From: Aliidongia dinghuensis
GTDB taxonomy: Bacteria > Pseudomonadota > Alphaproteobacteria > ATCC43930 > CGMCC-115725
Reading direction: 5' to 3'
Assembly (NCBI RefSeq): GCF_014643535.1
Contig: NZ_BMJQ01000001.1
Coordinates: 62,001-126,000, forward strand
DNA: 64,000 bases
Under the pieces are notes generated by a model. That model did not search any database. It worked only from the letters and a program-made list of their open reading frames with translations, and was not told the DNA's origin. Numbering within the stretch: the stretch's first letter is position 1; each line of letters opens with the position of its first letter. Positions 52,990-64,000 of the stretch are shown piece by piece. The position numbers were made by a program, and so were the translations under genes.

Positions 52990-55212
52990 TTACCGGCTGT
53001 AGCCGGAATAGACGTCCTGGCCCGTCGCCTTCTCGACCTTGGTCAGGATGATGCCGGTCGGCATGTCCGGATCGAGCGCCAGGCGGCGCAGCGCCTCACG
53101 CACCAGGCGCTGGCGCGTACGCTTCCACGACACGATGAGCGCCACCGCGTCGACCGAGCGGGCGAGCAGCATGGCGTCCGGCACGCGCATGACCGGCGGG
53201 GAGTCGATGACGATATAGTCGTACTCCCGCCGCGCATCGCGCAGCACCGCGCCCAGCCCGTCGGACTCGAGCATCGGCGCCAGCCGGTCGGTGTCTTCGG
53301 TCGCCGTCAGGTAGTTGAGGCCCGTCAGGTCGTCGACGCCGACCCAGTCGCGCCAGCCGGCCGGATCGTCGAGGAAGCTCGGCTGCCCCGGCCGCGACGG
53401 CGGCGGCAGCACCGTCTCGAGCGTCGGACGGCGGAAATCGCACTCGACCAGCAGTACGCGGCAGCCATCGCGCGCGGCGAGCCGCGCGAAGGACAGCGCG
53501 AACGAGGTCTTGCCCTCGCCCGGCACGGCGGAGCTCACCAGGATCGTCTTCAGCGACCGCCCCTCGGACGCCCAGCGGAGCTTCGCCCGGAAGGCGCGCA
53601 GCGTCTCGGCGACCGGCGAGGTCGGGTTGTCGACGACATAGCGGTGCGGCAGGCGCTTGCGGCCGAGGTTGCGCACCATGGGCAGGGCTGCGAGGCCCGG
53701 CAGGCCGGTCACGGTGCGGACCTGCTCCAGGCTCTCGAAGCCATGGTCGAGCTGGGCATAGAGAATGGAGCCTGCGATCGCGATCAGGCTGCCGGCGAAG
53801 GCCGCGAGCAGCGCCATGAGCGTGATCTTCGGGCTCGATGGATGCAGCGGCACCTCGGCGGACGAGATCATGCGGGCGTTGGCCTGCTGGATGTCCTGCG
53901 GCTTCGCCGTCTGCGCCACGCGCAGCATGAACTCGTCATAGACCTTGCGCTTGCTCTGGGCGTCGTCGTTCAGCCGCTGCAGCTGGTCCTGGGCCGCCGA
54001 GCTGGCGGTCGCCTTGGCGTTGAGCGTGGCGATCTGCTGGACCAGGCTCGACTCACGCGCCCGGGTCACGTCGACCTGGCCCCTGAGCGAGCTCACGACC
54101 TTGTCGATTTCCCGGTTGATCGCCGACTGCAGGCCGGCGACCTGCTGGTTGGCGGCCTTGAGGTCGGGATGGTTCGGGCCGACGCGGCTGCGCAAGTCGG
54201 ACTGGTTGCGCGCGGCTTCCGCCTCCTGCGCGCGCAGCGCCTGGATGACCGGCGATGCCAGGACGTTGCTATTGGCGGCGACGCCGCCCTGCTTGGCGGC
54301 GATCGCCTGGTTGTATTGCGCTTCGGCCGCTGCCCGGTCGGCCCGCGCGGTCGCGAGCTGGCCATTGAGCTCGGCCACCTGCTGGCCGGCGACGGTGCCC
54401 TGCGGCGTGACCAAGAGGCCGGTCTTGTTGGTGAAGTCCTGGACCTTCTGCTCGGACTCGAGCATCTGCTTGCGCAGTTCCTCGCCGCGTACGTCGAGCG
54501 ACTGGTTCGCCTCGATCGTTGCGGCCCGGTTTTCCGAGACGTACTGGTCGAGATATGTGCGGATGAGCGTGTTGACGACCTGGGCCGAGATCTCGGGCGT
54601 CTCGCTCTTGTAGGTGATCGAGATGACGTAGTCGCGGCCGTCGTTCACCAGGTCGAGATTTTTCGTGAGCGTATACAGCACGCCTTCATGGATCGCGGCC
54701 TGCGGATCGCCCACCTGCTTCTGCGGCCCGCGCATCAGCCCCTGGATGAACGGGATGGGGTTGAGCCGGGCCAGGAGGCTGTCGTCCTCGGGCTTCAGCG
54801 TCGGATTGAACTCCGGCACCTGGTCGAGGTGCAGCTTGTCGGCGACGGCGTTCAGCACCTGCCGCGAGCTCATGACTGCCATCTCGCTGCGGACGAGCGC
54901 CTGGTCGCCGGTCGGCGTGACGAGCGTCTCGAGCTCCGGGATCGACATCTTGCGGGTCGCGACCACCACGGCGCCGTCGGCGGTGTATTTCGGCGTCAGC
55001 TGCTTGGCGACCAGCACAGTTACCGCCATCGCCGCAAGGGCCGTCGCGCAAATGACCCAGCGCCGACGCCACAAGAGGGCGCCCATGCCGAGGATCGTCG
55101 TGGTTTCGATCGCGGGCGGCGCGAAGCTGTCGAGCGCCGGATGCTCAATCAGGGCGCCGCGGCGATAAATCGGGGCCGATGGCAGCCCGCTGCCGCTGGT
55201 GGCGTCGGTCAT
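52990..55212 (-). CDS. Wzc/GumC-type tyrosine autokinase and chain-length determinant
   Basis: 740 residues. A cytoplasmic N-terminus and one membrane helix (about 55-75) lead into a periplasmic Wzz domain and a long coiled-coil (about 200-420), with GNVR-type region near 430 and a second helix about 460-485 (ITLMALLAAFAGSLIAIAGS). The cytoplasmic BY-kinase domain has Walker A VPGEGKTS at 563-570, Walker A' LLVECDFRRPTL and Walker B YDYIVIDSPP. The Tyr cluster is short (VYSGYSR at the very end), as in GumC/ExoP rather than Wzc. It controls polymer length and export by cycles of autophosphorylation. Confidence 0.94.
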   Translation of the reverse strand: MTDATSGSGLPSAPIYRRGALIEHPALDSFAPPAIETTTILGMGALLWRRRWVICATALAAMAVTVLVAKQLTPKYTADGAVVVATRKMSIPELETLVTPTGDQALVRSEMAVMSSRQVLNAVADKLHLDQVPEFNPTLKPEDDSLLARLNPIPFIQGLMRGPQKQVGDPQAAIHEGVLYTLTKNLDLVNDGRDYVISITYKSETPEISAQVVNTLIRTYLDQYVSENRAATIEANQSLDVRGEELRKQMLESEQKVQDFTNKTGLLVTPQGTVAGQQVAELNGQLATARADRAAAEAQYNQAIAAKQGGVAANSNVLASPVIQALRAQEAEAARNQSDLRSRVGPNHPDLKAANQQVAGLQSAINREIDKVVSSLRGQVDVTRARESSLVQQIATLNAKATASSAAQDQLQRLNDDAQSKRKVYDEFMLRVAQTAKPQDIQQANARMISSAEVPLHPSSPKITLMALLAAFAGSLIAIAGSILYAQLDHGFESLEQVRTVTGLPGLAALPMVRNLGRKRLPHRYVVDNPTSPVAETLRAFRAKLRWASEGRSLKTILVSSAVPGEGKTSFALSFARLAARDGCRVLLVECDFRRPTLETVLPPPSRPGQPSFLDDPAGWRDWVGVDDLTGLNYLTATEDTDRLAPMLESDGLGAVLRDARREYDYIVIDSPPVMRVPDAMLLARSVDAVALIVSWKRTRQRLVREALRRLALDPDMPTGIILTKVEKATGQDVYSGYSR

Positions 55213-55311: not shown

Positions 55312-55692
55312 CTAATTCGTTGCACTGCACACAATAAGAATTATTGCCCCGGCCGCAAACACGCCGCCGCAGAGCAGCGCCTTGAACGCGCCGCGCAGGA
55401 CGCGGGTCATGCCGGTGACACCCTCGAGCGCGCGGCGGTCAGCCGAACGGGTCTCGCGGCCCATGAGCAAAACCATGTAGAACGAGAAGCCGAAGATCGT
55501 GTAGCTGTCGCGGATGTCGATCGGATGGCGGCCGATCGGCCGCGTGCCGAAGGCGCGCTTCAACGCCATGAACTGGCTCGCCGTAAAGGACCCGGCGATC
55601 GAGGGGCCGACGCGATTGGCAAGAATCTTGAAGAACGGGTCGACGTCGTCGGCCTGCGGCATCAAGATCTCGGCTTCGGTCTCCGCGGACAT
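55312..55692 (-). CDS. Small membrane protein of unknown function in the EPS locus
   Basis: 126 residues from ATG 55692 (GGGAG eight bases upstream). The first 80 residues are soluble-looking with no clear motif (VDPFFKILANRVGPSIAG, then RHPIDIRDSYTIFGFSFYMVL). A C-terminal hydrophobic segment (ALLCGGVFAAGAIILIVCSA) would anchor it in the inner membrane. I do not recognise the family. It lies 99 bp upstream of the tyrosine autokinase gene on the same strand and is probably transcribed with it, which suggests a role in chain-length control or export. Confidence 0.7.
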   Translation of the reverse strand: MSAETEAEILMPQADDVDPFFKILANRVGPSIAGSFTASQFMALKRAFGTRPIGRHPIDIRDSYTIFGFSFYMVLLMGRETRSADRRALEGVTGMTRVLRGAFKALLCGGVFAAGAIILIVCSATN

Positions 55693-55880
55693 GCTGCTGG
55701 CTCCCGTGGCGCGATTTAACCGGCCACGTTCAAGAAGAAACTTTTTGACGGACCCCGTTTCCGGCACGCCTCCGCGCGCACCGCCTGAAGTCCGCCGGCG
55801 GAACAAATTCGAGCGGGCGATGGAGCGACTTTGGCCTCAAAACCGTTGACAAGGGCTTAAGCAGACGAGAGCGAATTTCG

Positions 55881-57218
55881 ATGGATACAACGCTAGGATC
55901 GGTGGGGATCGAGCGCCGATGGCGCGGCACGGCGACGCGGCAGGGCACGATCGTCTCGAGCGTGCTCGCGGCGATGCTGAGTTCGTGCCTGTTCCTGACG
56001 CGTTTCGCGCTGACGGTCGGCAAAAGCGAATTGTCGCTGGCGCTTGTCGTCGTGCTGTGCGGCACGGCGCTCCTGGTCTTGACCGGCTCGATCCGGATCA
56101 GCCCGAGCCGCCTCGGGCTCTTCGGCGTGGCGGCGGCGACGCTGCTGCTGTCGGTGATGCTGAGCGGCGGCAGCCAGCCGTCCTACATGTCGTTCGCCAA
56201 TCTGCTGCTGCTCTATGCCTGCTGGATCTTCGTGGTGCCGGACGACCGGCAGTTCGCCATGGTGATCACCACCGTTCGGCGCATGCTGCTCATCATCGCG
56301 ATCGCCGGCATCCTGCAGTTCTTCGCCCAGGTCGGGATCCACTCGCAGACGCTGTTCAACTGGGACGTCCTGCCGCGCGCGGTGATCAGCCATGGCTTCA
56401 ACTACGTCATCCCGGCGCCGGGGCTGGGCGGGCTCAACAAGTCGAACGGCTTCTTTCTGCTCGAGCCGTCGAGCCTGTCGCAGATGATGGCGATCGCCAT
56501 CATTCTCGAGCTCGAATTCTATCGCGTGTCCTGGCGGATCGGCGTGCTGGCCGCAGCCCTGGCGCTTGCCCTTTCCGGCACGGGTCTCGTGCTGTTCTGC
56601 GCGATCGTGCCGCTGTTGCTGCTGCGCCGGGGCTTTGGCGGCGTGCTGCTGGTGGCGGTGCCGGCCGTCATCCTGCTGGGCTTGATCGTGGCCGGGCCCA
56701 AGCTCGCGCTGCTGCTCGACCGCGTGCAGGAGTTCCACTCGGACCAGTCGAGCGGCTTCGCGCGCTTCCTGTCGCCGTTCTTCCTGTTCAGCGACTTCCT
56801 CTATCCGCACCTGCAGACGACGCTGTTCGGCATGGGGCCGGGCGCGATCGAAACCTTCACGAACAAGACGGCCTACCTGATCCACGACCCGACCTGGGGC
56901 AAGCTCATCTTCGAATACGGCTTCCTCGGCGCCGTGCCCCTCTCGATCTTTGTCGGATATTGCTTCTTTGCCGGCGCGCGCTCGGTCTGGCTCGCAAGCG
57001 CGCTGTTCGTCAATTACCTGCTGCTCGGCGGCAACCTGGTCGATGCCCGACTGCAGGCGATGATCCTGGCCCTGGTCGTCCTGCAGAACCGGCCGCGCGA
57101 CGTCCGCGGGGCCACCGTCCGGTCGGTGATGCCTGGTGCGCCCATGCCCCGCGCGCCCATGCCGGGCGTCAGAACTGCAGCGCCAGGCTCACATAGTCCG
57201 GTGCGCAGGGTCCGCTGA
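55881..57218 (+). CDS. O-antigen-ligase-like / Wzy-type polymerase
   Basis: 445 residues with about 11 membrane segments and a large periplasmic loop (about 155-205: FNYVIPAPGLGGLNKSNGFF, then EPSSLSQMMA). Conserved-looking GMGPGAIETFTNK and the late HDPTWGKLIFEYGFLG place it in the Wzy_C / O-antigen ligase-like superfamily. It should polymerise flipped repeat units in the periplasm. The C-terminal tail has a short Pro-rich repeat (MPGAPMPRAPMPG) and overlaps the antisense lipoprotein gene by 50 bases. It is divergent from the autokinase operon. Confidence 0.85.
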   Translation: MDTTLGSVGIERRWRGTATRQGTIVSSVLAAMLSSCLFLTRFALTVGKSELSLALVVVLCGTALLVLTGSIRISPSRLGLFGVAAATLLLSVMLSGGSQPSYMSFANLLLLYACWIFVVPDDRQFAMVITTVRRMLLIIAIAGILQFFAQVGIHSQTLFNWDVLPRAVISHGFNYVIPAPGLGGLNKSNGFFLLEPSSLSQMMAIAIILELEFYRVSWRIGVLAAALALALSGTGLVLFCAIVPLLLLRRGFGGVLLVAVPAVILLGLIVAGPKLALLLDRVQEFHSDQSSGFARFLSPFFLFSDFLYPHLQTTLFGMGPGAIETFTNKTAYLIHDPTWGKLIFEYGFLGAVPLSIFVGYCFFAGARSVWLASALFVNYLLLGGNLVDARLQAMILALVVLQNRPRDVRGATVRSVMPGAPMPRAPMPGVRTAAPGSHSPVRRVR

Positions 57219-57300
57219 GCTTGAGCGAGCCGTCCCGGCTCGCGCAGCCGGCGACTACGGCCAGTGCGAAGAGCAGGCCCGCGATCCGCAGCAACCCCAT
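57169..57300 (-). CDS. Small lipoprotein, antisense-overlapping the polymerase gene
   Basis: 43 residues, MGLLRIAGLLFALAVVAGC then ASRDGSLKLSG and PCAPDYVSLALQF. The start is a textbook lipoprotein signal with lipobox VVAGC (Cys19), and GGAGG lies six to seven bases before ATG 57300. The Ala after the Cys favours outer-membrane sorting. A second Cys sits in GPCAPDYV. The last 50 bases overlap the end of the polymerase gene on the other strand. I do not recognise the family. Proximity to export genes suggests a small accessory of polysaccharide secretion. Confidence 0.65.
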   Translation of the reverse strand: MGLLRIAGLLFALAVVAGCASRDGSLKLSGPCAPDYVSLALQF

Positions 57301-57429
57301 GGCAGCCTCCGCCGAAATCCTTCAGCCGACATAGGGAAGTGGCGCCGCCGCCTGCTGCGGTCAATAGGGGCTGCGGTTAATGAGGGCTGCGGAGGGACGC
57401 CGCTCTTGGCCCGTGTATCGTCGGTCCGG

Positions 57430-58593
57430 TCAGGCGTCCGCCGGCAGGGTGCGGCTCTGGCTGCGCCGGTCGATGAGGCCCTTGGCGAGCGCGGCGAGCC
57501 GGTGATAGTGCCGCTCGAACAGGAACCAGAAGACCCAGGCACCGACGTTCGCGATCACCAGGATTTCGACGAAGGTGCCGACGTCGTGGTGCGTGGGCGA
57601 GGGCCGGTGCACGGCGAACCACATCAGCACCGTGTAGTGGATGAGGTAGAGCGAATAGCTGTAGTCGGCGATCCGGTCGATCGCCCGGCTGACGAAGCGC
57701 GGCACCGTGACCGGCGCCACGCCCAGCAGGAAGAAGCCGCCGAACAGGATGCCGGCCGTGAAGACCGCGAACTGCAGGTCGTAGATCCGCGTGTCGGTCA
57801 CGAACGCCCGGCCGGCGAGCAGCATCGCCGACAGCAGGATCCCGACCGTGAGGAACCAGGCCCAGCGACCGCGGCCCGGCAGCGCCTGCGGCCCGCCGCG
57901 CCGCATCAGCCGGTCCTGCGCCCAGGCAGCGGCAGCGCCGGTCGCCCAGACGAAGCTCAGGCACTGGCCGACGCCGCCCATGGCGTTGTAGATCGGCACG
58001 ATGCCGACCAAGGCCAGGATCAGGAGGTCGCGCACGGCGAGGCGCCGGAGCCGCGTCACGAAGAAGGCGAGATAGCCGAAGGTGAGATAGATCCACCATT
58101 CGATCGCCACGGTCCAGAACGGCCGGCCCGAGCCGAACGCCTCGATGAACCAGGGCCGATCGGGGCTGCCAAGCCTGCGCAGGATCTGGAACACCGGGAA
58201 TTCCTGCAGCATCACCAGGTTGCCGAGCCACTGCAGCGGCGTCGAGCTTGCCGCATAGGGATAAGCCGGCAGGTCGTGCATCAGGCTGTCGACCAGCGCC
58301 ACCAGCACCAGCGCCGGCAGGTAGGCCGAGAAGATGCGGCAGAACCGGTCGATCACGTAATGGCCGAAGCGATAGTCGGACCGGTCGCGCTTCTGCCGTA
58401 CGCTGAGCGCAATGAGAAAGCCCGAGAGCAGAAAGAACACGAGCACGCCGAACTGCTCCCAGCGGCCGCCGCGGTCGTGGCCGGCGAGGAAATAGGCCGT
58501 GCTGTGGCCGACGAGGACGATCTGGGCGGCGAGCGCGCGGACCAGATTGAGATAATCGACCTGGCAGGGCGCCAGCTTGACGGAGTGGGCCAT
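57430..58593 (-). CDS. Membrane acyltransferase (acyltransferase_3 family), second copy
   Basis: 387 residues with about ten membrane segments. VDYLNLVRALAAQIVLVGHS carries the family Arg and His, and GVLVFFLLSGFLIALSV and FWTVAIEWWIYLTFGYLAF follow. It should decorate the polymer with an acyl group. It differs from the acyltransferase at 46958-48175, so the polymer may carry two kinds of substituent. Its ATG shares one base with the stop of the GT2 gene upstream (TGATG), which implies coupling. Confidence 0.92.
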   Translation of the reverse strand: MAHSVKLAPCQVDYLNLVRALAAQIVLVGHSTAYFLAGHDRGGRWEQFGVLVFFLLSGFLIALSVRQKRDRSDYRFGHYVIDRFCRIFSAYLPALVLVALVDSLMHDLPAYPYAASSTPLQWLGNLVMLQEFPVFQILRRLGSPDRPWFIEAFGSGRPFWTVAIEWWIYLTFGYLAFFVTRLRRLAVRDLLILALVGIVPIYNAMGGVGQCLSFVWATGAAAAWAQDRLMRRGGPQALPGRGRWAWFLTVGILLSAMLLAGRAFVTDTRIYDLQFAVFTAGILFGGFFLLGVAPVTVPRFVSRAIDRIADYSYSLYLIHYTVLMWFAVHRPSPTHHDVGTFVEILVIANVGAWVFWFLFERHYHRLAALAKGLIDRRSQSRTLPADA

Positions 58594-59564
58594 CAGGAAC
58601 GGTGGGCTGCAGGGTGGGCCGCGAGCAGGCTGCGCAGCGCGCGGCGGATCGCCTTGCCGGGCCTGAGCGCCGAGGCGAGAGCCAAGTAGGCGTAAGCCGT
58701 GGTCTTGCGCCCGCCGACGAGTGCAGTGGTCGAGCGCCGGTAAAGCCCGTCCGACATGAGCTGCGCCCGCAAGGCCAAGCGCTCGCCGATCGGCCGGCGC
58801 CGCTCGTGCTCGAGGAACGCGTCATAGCTGAGCGTTGGCCGGCCGTCCCGTGCCGCATAGAAATTATGATAGGTCCAGCGCACGCTCATGAACTGCCGGG
58901 TCGCCGTGCGCGCCGAGATCGCGCCCGCATGGACGCGGTAGTGCAGCAGGATCTCCGGCTGGATCAGGATCGGCGCGCCGGTCGCCAGCATGCGTGCGAA
59001 CAGGTCGACGTCCTCGGCAGGTTCGGCCGCCGAATTGTAGCCGCCGAGGTCGACGGCCGCCCGCCGGCGGAAGATCATGCTCGGGTGCAGGAAGCTCAAA
59101 GGCTCGCGCGCCTCGATGAAGCGGGTGAGTTCGTCGCGCGTGCGCGGCAGCGGCATGCGGCTCCCATGGCTGCACCCGTCGGTATCGATGATCTCGTAAT
59201 AGCTGCCCGCCGCGATCAGGTCCGGGTTGGCCACGACGAAGGCCAATTGCCGCTCGAGCCGCTCGGGCAGCATCAGGTCGTCGCAATCGAGCCGGGCGAT
59301 CCAGTCGGCCCGCGATGCCGCGATGCCGCGGTTCAGCGTGTCGGCGATGCCGGAGTTGGACTTGGCGATCGGACGGATGCGCGCATCGCGCTGGGCATAG
59401 TGCTGGATGATCCGGGCGCTGTCGTCGGTCGAGCCGTCGTCGACCAGGATCAGCTCGAAGTCGCCCAGCGTCTGGTCGAGCACGCTGTCGATCGAGGCGG
59501 CGAGATATGCGGCCCCGTTATAGATCGGCATCACGACGGAGACGCGTGGTGCGGCGGATGTCAT
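58593..59564 (-). CDS. Glycosyltransferase family 2, second copy
   Basis: 323 residues with a GT-A fold: VSVVMPIYNGAAYLAASIDS, FELILVDDGSTDDSA, WIARLDCDDLMLPERLE (D-x-D), and AEPAEDVDLFARML for the catalytic base region. It starts a two-gene unit with the acyltransferase. It differs from the GT2 at 49437-50477. Confidence 0.93.
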   Translation of the reverse strand: MTSAAPRVSVVMPIYNGAAYLAASIDSVLDQTLGDFELILVDDGSTDDSARIIQHYAQRDARIRPIAKSNSGIADTLNRGIAASRADWIARLDCDDLMLPERLERQLAFVVANPDLIAAGSYYEIIDTDGCSHGSRMPLPRTRDELTRFIEAREPLSFLHPSMIFRRRAAVDLGGYNSAAEPAEDVDLFARMLATGAPILIQPEILLHYRVHAGAISARTATRQFMSVRWTYHNFYAARDGRPTLSYDAFLEHERRRPIGERLALRAQLMSDGLYRRSTTALVGGRKTTAYAYLALASALRPGKAIRRALRSLLAAHPAAHRS

Positions 59565-59863
59565 AGGTCGGCTTCCAGCAGCAGAAACGGATGAAGGTGC
59601 GGCTGGTCAACGCCAGACCCTAGCCGAAGGGTCCCGAAATGTCGCCCGGCTTTTCATCGATTGCTCCCTAAATTCCACAAAAACGGGCGTGCGCTGCGGG
59701 AACGAACCGGTCACCACCTTGTTTGCGTGGCGCGTCTCGGGGAAATATGTCGATATTGCGCCGCACAAACGGCGTGCCGAACGTCTCAGAATCTTGCGCT
59801 TTGAGGATCTTGCCACTGCGGGCCGCACTCCGTGCCTCGCGCCGATCGCGAGGGGATTTCACG
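59565..59863. other. Divergent spacer between GT2 and GT8-like genes
   Basis: About 300 bases. It would hold promoters in both directions. In-frame upstream starts of the GT8-like gene at 59723 or 59747 would extend coding into it, but the added residues are Arg-rich and look non-coding. Confidence 0.35.
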
Positions 59864-60808
59864 GTGCCAGCGAAGCTTCAGCCATCCGAGCAGCAACCGG
59901 GCAAACTGCTGATCGTCAGCTCGTCCGACACGAAGTTTTTCGGTCTGCTCAAGGACATGATCCTGTCGCTCGAGCGACTGGCGCGCCAGCCGGCGAGCCG
60001 GATCCCGGCTTACGCCCTAGGCATCGTCGACCTGGGTCTGTCGGACGAGGATCGCGCCTGGCTCGCCGAGCGGGATGCGATGATCGTGGCACCCCGGCCG
60101 CATATGGGCGCGGGCTCGCTCGACCGGCCGCTCGAGCTTGCGTTCCTGGTGCGGCCGTTCCTGCCGGAATATTTCCCCGGCTACGACATCTATTGCTGGA
60201 TCGATTCCGACGTCTGGCTGCAGAACGAGGACGCAGTGCTGGGGCTCGTCGACGGGGCGGCCGAAGCGGGCATGGCGATCGCCCACGAGAACGAGCGCGC
60301 CTATCGCTTCCAGCGCTGGCTGTTTCTGTGGACGGCGAAGCATTTCGTCCTGGGATACGGCCCGTTCCGCGGCGCATGGCTCTTGACCCGGCCGCATCTC
60401 AACGCCGGCATGTTCGCGATCCGCGCCGGGGCACCGCATTGGGCGGCCTGGGCGCGACGCTACAAGGCCGCGATCGACAAGACCGGCAAGATCACGCCGC
60501 ACGATCAGTTCGCGCTCAACCAGGCGATCTATCAGGACCGGCTGCCGACCCGCTTCCTCGATGCCAGCGCCAACTGGATCTGCGATCGCGGTGTGCCGAT
60601 GTGGAACGACGAGGCCGGCGCCTTCTGCCGGCCTTACGCGCCCTATGAGACGATCTCGGCCTTGCATCTGGCCGGCCCGGGCAAGCGGACGGCCTATCGG
60701 ATCGCACGCACCGGCGGCGGCTCGTTTACGACCATGATCCGGTATGGTGCCGCACCTGTGCCGGCGCCGGCGGCCGAACCGGCCGGCCTGTCGGTTGCGG
60801 CGCATTGA
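59864..60808 (+). CDS. GT8-like glycosyltransferase
   Basis: 314 residues if started at GTG 59864, preferred because GAGGGG lies eight bases upstream and the conserved domain begins soon after (KLLIVSSSDTKFFGLLKDM). ATG 59747 is the alternative. The D-x-D motif is CWIDSDVW (Asp114 and Asp116). NAGMFAIRAG and DQFALNQAIYQ resemble acceptor and metal-binding parts of GT8-type enzymes. It transfers a sugar in repeat-unit assembly. It lies 13 bp before the next GT4 gene. Confidence 0.75.
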   Translation: MPAKLQPSEQQPGKLLIVSSSDTKFFGLLKDMILSLERLARQPASRIPAYALGIVDLGLSDEDRAWLAERDAMIVAPRPHMGAGSLDRPLELAFLVRPFLPEYFPGYDIYCWIDSDVWLQNEDAVLGLVDGAAEAGMAIAHENERAYRFQRWLFLWTAKHFVLGYGPFRGAWLLTRPHLNAGMFAIRAGAPHWAAWARRYKAAIDKTGKITPHDQFALNQAIYQDRLPTRFLDASANWICDRGVPMWNDEAGAFCRPYAPYETISALHLAGPGKRTAYRIARTGGGSFTTMIRYGAAPVPAPAAEPAGLSVAAH

Positions 60809-62837: not shown

Positions 62838-64000
62838 TCAGAACTGCTTCTTGAAGGTCAGCATGAGGATGTTGTCGTTGAAGGTGCGGCTGGCATTGGA
62901 CGTGAGGTTTTGGAACATGTAGTCGACGCCCACGATGAAGCCGCGGAGCGCCTCGTACTCCACGCGCCCGTCCGTCGAGATGATGTCGTAGCGGCGCGTG
63001 GATTTCTGCAGCGTGCGGGCATCGTAGCTCGCGGAGGCCTTGAGCAGCAGGTCGCGCTTCAGCTCATGGCTGACCGTCAGCGTCGTCATGTCGTGGACGT
63101 AGCCGGGGCTCTCCGCGAACAGATCCTCGAAATATTCGTGGGTGAACTTGATGTCGGCCTGCGTAAGGTCCGTCGGCGACCAGAGCAGGTCCAAGACCAC
63201 GTCCGGCTTGTTGATCGTGCCGTAGCGCGGGTCGGCGTAATCCTGCGTCTGCCAGCCGCCGGTGATCGAGATCAGGAACAGGCTGTCGATATCGAACACG
63301 AAGCCCGCATCGCTGCGCACGCCGTTGCTGTCGCGGTGGAAGCCCGAGGCGTCGGTCTCGCGGCCGAAGGTGCGGCCGTCGGGGCGGATCTCCAGGAAGG
63401 CCTTCTGCTGGCCGAAGAACGTATGGTCGTACCGGACGTCGCCGAAGATCTCCTGGCGGTCGCGGTCGTTCGTGATGATCTGGCCCTGGGAGCCGAAGGA
63501 CTGGTCGAAGATGCTCTGGTTGACGCCCATCGTGACGGTCACGAGGTTGCTGGACCCGTTGCCGAGAGCAACGCCGGTCTCACCGTCGTAGAGCAGGTAG
63601 GTCGCGGGCTGGAAGCCGTTGATCGTGTTCGGATCGCTGCGCGGCACGGACAGGCGCTGCACGCCGCCCTGTGCGAACAGGCTGACGTCCCGGCCGATCT
63701 GGTCCGAGAGGTTGAGGCGCGCGCCGCCCTGCCAATAATCCTCGTTCGGCAGCGTGATATAGCGGCGCTCCTGATAGTTCAGGTCGAGCAGCGCCCGGAA
63801 GCCGTCGTAGTGGTAGTCGCCGCTGATCCGCCCGCCGTAGTCGACGAAGCCGTCGCCTTTGACCCCGGTCTGCTGGGCGAAGACGTTGTCGTTGTATCCC
63901 AAATCTGCCACGGCGGATGCCTGGAACGACACGGCGCCGATCTGCGTTCCTGGGACCGAGGTGCGTCGGTCGAATCTGTCCTGCAGCAGCTCGTGCGGAC
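62838..64000 (-). CDS. Outer-membrane beta-barrel protein (BBP2-like), 5' end outside the window
   Basis: At least 386 residues; the frame stays open to the window edge, so the true start and signal peptide are not visible. It shows many amphipathic strands, the family opening VADLGYNDNVFAQQ, repeated aromatic strand ends and a C-terminal FKKQF with terminal Phe typical of outer-membrane proteins. It matches the putative beta-barrel porin 2 group, found in Wzy-type EPS loci (VpsM-like) where it may provide the outer-membrane channel for short OPX proteins. An internal GTG at 63932 is an unlikely start because upstream codons continue family-like sequence. Confidence 0.85.
   Translation of the reverse strand, partial: PHELLQDRFDRRTSVPGTQIGAVSFQASAVADLGYNDNVFAQQTGVKGDGFVDYGGRISGDYHYDGFRALLDLNYQERRYITLPNEDYWQGGARLNLSDQIGRDVSLFAQGGVQRLSVPRSDPNTINGFQPATYLLYDGETGVALGNGSSNLVTVTMGVNQSIFDQSFGSQGQIITNDRDRQEIFGDVRYDHTFFGQQKAFLEIRPDGRTFGRETDASGFHRDSNGVRSDAGFVFDIDSLFLISITGGWQTQDYADPRYGTINKPDVVLDLLWSPTDLTQADIKFTHEYFEDLFAESPGYVHDMTTLTVSHELKRDLLLKASASYDARTLQKSTRRYDIISTDGRVEYEALRGFIVGVDYMFQNLTSNASRTFNDNILMLTFKKQF

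Follow-up and report, generated by a model that had tools for sequence, protein, structure and literature searches.

A 43-codon candidate lipoprotein gene, conserved at the protein level, ends inside a putative polymerase gene of a polymer locus

The open reading frame at 57169–57300 on the minus strand of the window (the whole 64-kb stretch of DNA that was analysed) is almost certainly a real gene, and its product is very probably a membrane-anchored lipoprotein. As read from the translation of the window, the frame runs from ATG to TGA over 43 codons, and the product encoded from 57300 to 57169 is MGLLRIAGLLFALAVVAGCASRDGSLKLSGPCAPDYVSLALQF, which falls into two parts as MGLLRIAGLLFALAVVAGC-ASRDGSLKLSGPCAPDYVSLALQF. 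Homologues were identified in two other genomes. The genus was sampled as two genomes, the window's own (G000) and a sister genome taken as the MAG Rhodospirillales bacterium RYN_449 (G001, contig JAQGIC010000041.1), and the gene is present in both; the third genome, taken as the MAG MJ-time_bin-3365 (G013, CAIUCF), belongs to another genus of the same family. Comparison of these copies suggests an orphan, lineage-restricted minimal lipoprotein that would act as an accessory tethered peptide binding an envelope partner encoded elsewhere, a reading that we regard as about an even call. The features on which the argument draws are as follows.

52990–55212, minus strand: Wzc-like protein with Wzz and GNVR domains above the Pfam cut-off (Pfam, NCBIfam)
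55312–55806, minus strand: small protein, membrane-like by eye, between the polymerase and the Wzc-like gene (open reading frame)
55881–57218, plus strand: putative Wzy-type polymerase (position and membrane-protein character)
57169–57300, minus strand: lipoprotein gene with type II signal peptide, lipid Cys19 and 24-residue tail (open reading frame, homologues in G001 and G013, codon test)
57169–57218, both genes: convergent antisense overlap of 50 nt between the lipoprotein gene and the 3' end of the polymerase frame (open reading frame coordinates)
57172–57219, minus strand: conserved tail LSGPCAPDYVSLALQF, residues 28–43 (comparison of copies from three genomes)
57244–57300, minus strand: signal peptide and lipobox V-A-G-C, residues 1–19 (translation, chance scan)
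57306–57310, minus strand: Shine-Dalgarno GGAGG, 5 nt 5' of the ATG (sequence)
57430–58593, minus strand: acyltransferase (PF01757), separated by 129 nt from the lipoprotein gene downstream of it (Pfam)
58593–59564, minus strand: family 2 glycosyltransferase (PF00535), start of a putative three-gene unit (Pfam)
62838–63932, minus strand: outer-membrane beta-barrel (PF10082, BBP2_2) with C-terminus ...NDNILMLTFKKQF (Pfam)

The preliminary description of this DNA had placed here a 43-residue lipoprotein gene antisense to the end of the polymerase gene, with a strong ribosome site and a TGA stop inside the polymerase gene, and all of this was borne out: the reading frame and its V-A-G-C lipobox were recovered, GGAGG lies 5 nt 5' of the ATG, and the gene ends at 57169 while the polymerase frame runs on to 57218. 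The overlap thus makes 50 of the gene's 132 nt antisense-coding and leaves the signal peptide and linker outside. A lipoprotein signal consists of a charged n-region, a hydrophobic core and a lipobox of the form [LVI][ASTVI][GAS]C. In the window copy, Arg5 stands ahead of the hydrophobic core and is followed by the lipobox V-A-G-C19; the mature peptide is predicted to comprise 25 residues and carries a second cysteine, Cys32. The window copy fits the strict pattern and the G001 copy a looser one only, as its lipobox reads L-G-G-C with a glycine at −2 outside the strict set; GGAGG precedes the ATG in G001 as well. The looser pattern did not detect the G013 copy, whose lipobox is imperfect (C-A-A-C, with Cys at −3). 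A strict scan of the 64-kb window for ATG-started lipobox frames of 30–80 aa returned three, and a ribosome-site match together with a hydrophobic core was present in the 57169–57300 frame only. None of 85 lipobox frames combined both features in 20 random 64-kb sequences drawn from a Markov-1 model, which carry the base-to-base frequencies of the window. The last base of the glycosyltransferase gene is the first base of the acyltransferase gene. A search of 57000–57600 for sigma-70 promoters and terminators gave no match, as shuffled sequences hardly ever did either, so that a single transcript starting at the glycosyltransferase is likely.

The copy in the sister genome gives evidence that this frame is kept as a protein. 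It encodes 51 aa (MTKLGSVGVRLAGVLIGLVLLGGCMDSRKMQDSLKLSGPCAPNYVSLALQF), sits between an acyltransferase that is 81% identical and a convergent polymerase that is 72–73% identical to those of the window, and overlaps the polymerase gene by 56 nt, in a gene order that reads by eye the same as in the window. Lack of protein-level conservation in relatives carrying the locus had been named beforehand as the observation that would count against the gene, and such conservation was found in this 51-aa protein, encoded at the matching site. The two copies agree at 48 of the 60 bases of their final 20 codons, with 11 codons identical, 8 synonymous and 1 nonsynonymous (D to N), and the 12 substitutions fall at third (8), first (3) and second (1) positions. 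When the same 12 substitutions were placed randomly, one residue change or fewer arose with P of about 1e-5 (mean 7.2 changes), a figure that is somewhat flattered by the choice of this block for its gap-free alignment. The five other frames of the same block gave 0, 1, 1, 1 and 5 synonymous changes of 9; in the polymerase frame, each of the nine differing codons alters the meaning, and the nine include the polymerase stop and one codon past it. At the level of codon comparison, this pattern demonstrates purifying selection on the lipoprotein reading frame. The polymerase itself is poorly conserved past QNRPRDV (residue 408), so that the overlap would constrain mainly the lipoprotein frame. 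Taken together, the codon test and the poor conservation of the polymerase end indicate that selection keeps the lipoprotein and that the polymerase merely runs into its gene.

The third copy is diverged and lies in a different setting. In G013 the gene encodes MATRLLRNLAAAALLMGLCAACQSADTIHLSGPCAPDMIRLHTAF and occurs on two contigs, which are seemingly variants of one locus; over the whole gene these differ by seven synonymous codons and one nonsynonymous codon (M to V, in the signal peptide), a pattern that again points to a kept protein. All three genomes encode an identical LSGPCAP motif, which is separated from the stop by nine residues, the last of them Phe in each copy. On the 5' side of the G013 gene and on the same strand lie genes for a molybdopterin enzyme, an iron-sulfur subunit, an ethylbenzene-dehydrogenase-like subunit and a nitrate-reductase-delta-like chaperone, so that the lipoprotein gene stands at the end of a molybdoenzyme operon; on the 3' side follow a protein without a Pfam match and then an enoyl-CoA hydratase. 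The G013 genome gave no match to the polymerase at E ≤ 1e-5 and none to the acyltransferase at E ≤ 1e-20. A search for the molybdoenzyme chaperone (E ≤ 1e-10) matched 2 of 39 genomes of the family, one being G013 itself, too few to tie the lipoprotein to the molybdoenzyme operon.

In order to see how far the family reaches, profile and pattern searches were compared at several taxonomic depths. With a full-length profile, convincing copies were found in 3 of 43 genomes of the order (G000, G001 and G013); 15 further genomes gave only matches at E 0.004–0.1, in which mostly the signal-peptide part was matched. In an even draw of 385 genomes of the class that did not include G013, convincing copies were confined to G000 and G001. 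The full-length profile, with at most 18 candidates scored per genome, listed 12 of these 385 genomes at E ≤ 0.01, and the 10 other matches (E 1.3e-4 to 0.0097) again covered mostly the signal-peptide part, within open frames of 191–649 aa. A tail-only profile listed 229 of the 385 genomes at E ≤ 1, with a best E of 0.004 beyond G000 and G001, and inspection by eye found no small lipoprotein at 27 of the 28 other loci that it gave. Within the family, a single-protein search listed 20 of 39 genomes at E ≤ 1, where the matches beyond the three copies (best E 0.0076) were taken as chance. In a collection of genome contigs, 13 stretches fitted the peptide pattern and three loci in two genomes (RYN_449 and MJ-time_bin-3365) were confirmed, while none of 19 pattern matches in viral contigs was. 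Plasmids searched with the window protein and phages searched with the G001 protein gave no match at E ≤ 1, and in PHROGs nothing matched P0001 or P0004, while P0005 had two weak N-terminal matches (E 0.05 and 0.15) that were taken as chance. Six sequences from solved structures (E 0.14–0.98), animal-type fatty acid synthases, were taken as chance.

No Pfam family matched any of the three copies at E ≤ 10, entericidin and the other small lipoproteins in Pfam included. In NCBIfam, the G001 and G013 copies had no match and the window copy had one listing far below the cut-off, to the Lpp/OprI-type alanine-zipper lipoproteins (NF040598), which covers residues 4–23 in the signal peptide region at E 0.096 but reaches 13.2 bits against a cut-off of 43. 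LSGPCAP was not found in a literature search, and among the matches listed no title or opening of an abstract on small lipoproteins in polymer loci or with barrel signals concerned this gene. By these searches the gene is family-restricted, with three loci known, all within one family, and it appears to represent a small lipoprotein family without a description found here and with no specific known family matched.

On the preferred reading, signal peptidase II would leave a 25-residue lipopeptide. An Ala at +2 directs a lipoprotein to the outer membrane by the Lol rule of E. coli, and the Ala at +2 would send this lipopeptide there as well; an outer-membrane location is the probable one. The linker after the lipid cysteine varies among the copies (ASRDG, MDSRKMQD and QSAD) and may be a free spacer, whereas the conserved C-terminal end, a proline-flanked cysteine (GPCAP) and then a short stretch that closes with Phe, could be a docking peptide for an envelope partner. 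The GPCAP cysteine could form a disulfide, and docking might perhaps proceed in this way. A spacer that varies in length and sequence ahead of a fixed end is as expected of a tethered docking peptide. Docking through the cysteine tail in particular is a tentative proposal, on which we would place somewhat less than even trust.

That the partner would be a beta-barrel is improbable. The beta-signal of outer-membrane barrels comprises a terminal aromatic residue and hydrophobic residues at −3, −5 and −7. These positions are F, L, L and V in the window and G001 copies; G013 has T at −3, and hydrophobic residues at −5 and −7 before the final Phe are present in all three. The tail end resembles the closing strand of outer-membrane barrels, such as that of the barrel of the locus (...NDNILMLTFKKQF), which we treat as a lead only. 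AlphaFold modelled the 43-residue product with low confidence (pLDDT 60); the model has a short helix at residues 36–41 and no strand there, and this helix speaks weakly against a barrel signal. A lipid-anchored mimic, whose last strand would pose as a barrel end in order to recruit or gate the barrel assembly machinery or to seal a barrel, acting at various secretion or enzyme loci, is a long shot.

The foremost alternative to the tethered peptide for a partner encoded elsewhere is a dedicated part in polymer export or modification, in which it would be co-produced with the acyltransferase and act where a Wzc-Wza-barrel pathway reaches the outer membrane, which we consider possible but on the unlikely side. 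The gene occupies the same place in both genomes of the genus, lies downstream of a family 2 glycosyltransferase and the acyltransferase on the same strand, and belongs to a locus that encodes an outer-membrane barrel. Klebsiella RmpD is a small protein. It is likened to the present product by description as a capsule-system protein, not by sequence, and comes from a similar type of locus; RmpD is reported to interact with Wzc, on which it can act (PMC10294653). In G013, however, the gene has a molybdoenzyme operon as its neighbour, and that genome gave no match to the polymerase (E ≤ 1e-5) or to the acyltransferase (E ≤ 1e-20); the gene is therefore not absent where the polymer locus is absent. 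The reverse search weighs only lightly against such a part. A diverged polymerase, 29–32% identical, is encoded in four more distant genomes (G022, G032, G037 and G038), although the G022 relative contains three internal stops, and lipoprotein profile matches in these four were weak only (E 0.006–0.1, open frames of 125–600 aa). No convincing homologue was present in G032, G037 and G038, which have both polymerase and acyltransferase in diverged form (weak profile matches, E 0.04–0.1); there the two genes lie on separate contigs. The loci of the four genomes are not the same as that of the window. A lipobox scan near the distant polymerase and acyltransferase genes (flanks of up to 1.5 kb) gave matches in 5 of 7 loci and no real signal peptide by eye, and it is weak as a negative since the same pattern missed the G013 copy with its Cys at −3.

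The likeness to prmB of the Sphingomonas promonan locus also bears on an export role. It is a small orphan reading frame in an alphaproteobacterial polymer locus, although it is 64 aa long and is likened by description rather than sequence, and its deletion reportedly left colony morphology and polymer production unchanged (PMC11340318). The lack of effect is a warning against assuming function from place. The earlier suggestion of a small envelope component of polymer export therefore finds no support as a specific role, given a homologue beside the molybdoenzyme operon and no polymerase or acyltransferase match in that genome; exclusive service to polymer export is likewise not supported by the comparison of loci. 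The gene lies with the polymer locus in the genus, yet appears not to be bound to the polymer pathway in evolution. Its occurrence in two settings, polymer locus and molybdoenzyme operon, favors a general envelope role over a dedicated export part, a thin case with one locus of the second kind.

Instead of docking to a partner encoded elsewhere through its tail, the product might be a helper of the LptM type, binding an outer-membrane barrel during assembly and aiding its disulfide formation; we find this distinctly unlikely. LptM, formerly YifL (Pfam PF13627), is also short and lipid-anchored, with a G-P motif that closely follows the lipid cysteine, and the present product recalls it in size, lipid anchor and this motif. 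LptM is described as a lipoprotein that joins LptD and LptE at BAM and stabilizes a form of LptD in which native disulfides are acquired (PMC10567701). None of the three copies matched PF13627 at E ≤ 10, however, and the genomic place is different. In G001 another lipoprotein gene is the LptM-like one (PF13627 E 0.006, 20 bits where the family cut-off is 27.3), and it is flanked by genes taken by eye as argH and lysA; neither G013 nor the 150 scored candidates (of 153) in G000 matched PF13627 at E ≤ 0.1. An argH-lysA neighbourhood is typical of this gene class, and with an LptM-like gene in that place the copy considered here is unlikely to be the LptM of G001. Small membrane-active peptides, such as entericidin or those for bacteriocin release, share the size class and architecture, but this reading has a very slim chance, as no Pfam family matched and searches of viral contigs, plasmids and phages confirmed no relative. 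That the stretch, at the meeting point of two convergent genes, is instead a conserved DNA or RNA element without protein function has a negligible likelihood given that 8 of 12 substitutions are in third positions with residues kept, as likewise in the G013 variants, that no terminator-like hairpin was found and that the third locus lies elsewhere.

The find is a modest one, one more orphan small lipoprotein in three genomes. It nevertheless describes a protein gene under selection that annotation could easily overlook, given its small size and its overlap with a longer gene, and LSGPCAP near the stop provides a clear motif for searches by others. If the tail binds an envelope machine, the peptide would offer a ready-made probe of very small size for studying it.

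Several observations concern the surrounding genes. In the Wzc-like protein, tyrosine-kinase families scored below the NCBIfam cut-off. The putative polymerase matched no Pfam or NCBIfam family at E ≤ 1, and its structural model (pLDDT 37) was too poor to use; at E ≤ 10 there was no Pfam match for it, its G001 orthologue or its G038 relative, and the G037 and G032 relatives had Pfam matches far below the cut-off only, two of them in G032 (E 0.3 and 0.55). The acyltransferase also showed a spurious-looking match to a Luteovirus P0 profile (E 0.0012, below the cut-off). The small protein at 55312–55806 (minus strand), with no Pfam match at E ≤ 0.001, is conserved by eye in G001 (L031, 9044–9508), and the ethylbenzene-dehydrogenase-like molybdoenzyme operon of G013 spans L112, 972–6100. 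A protein of the locus encoded at 59723–60808 (plus strand) is present by eye in G001 and had a sub-threshold Glyco_transf_8 match (E 0.17); it perhaps represents an undescribed glycosyltransferase group. Finally, the C-terminus of the polymerase (57120–57175) contains a short repeat, MPGAPMPRAPMPG, which the sister genome lacks and which was gained or lost in one of the two lineages.
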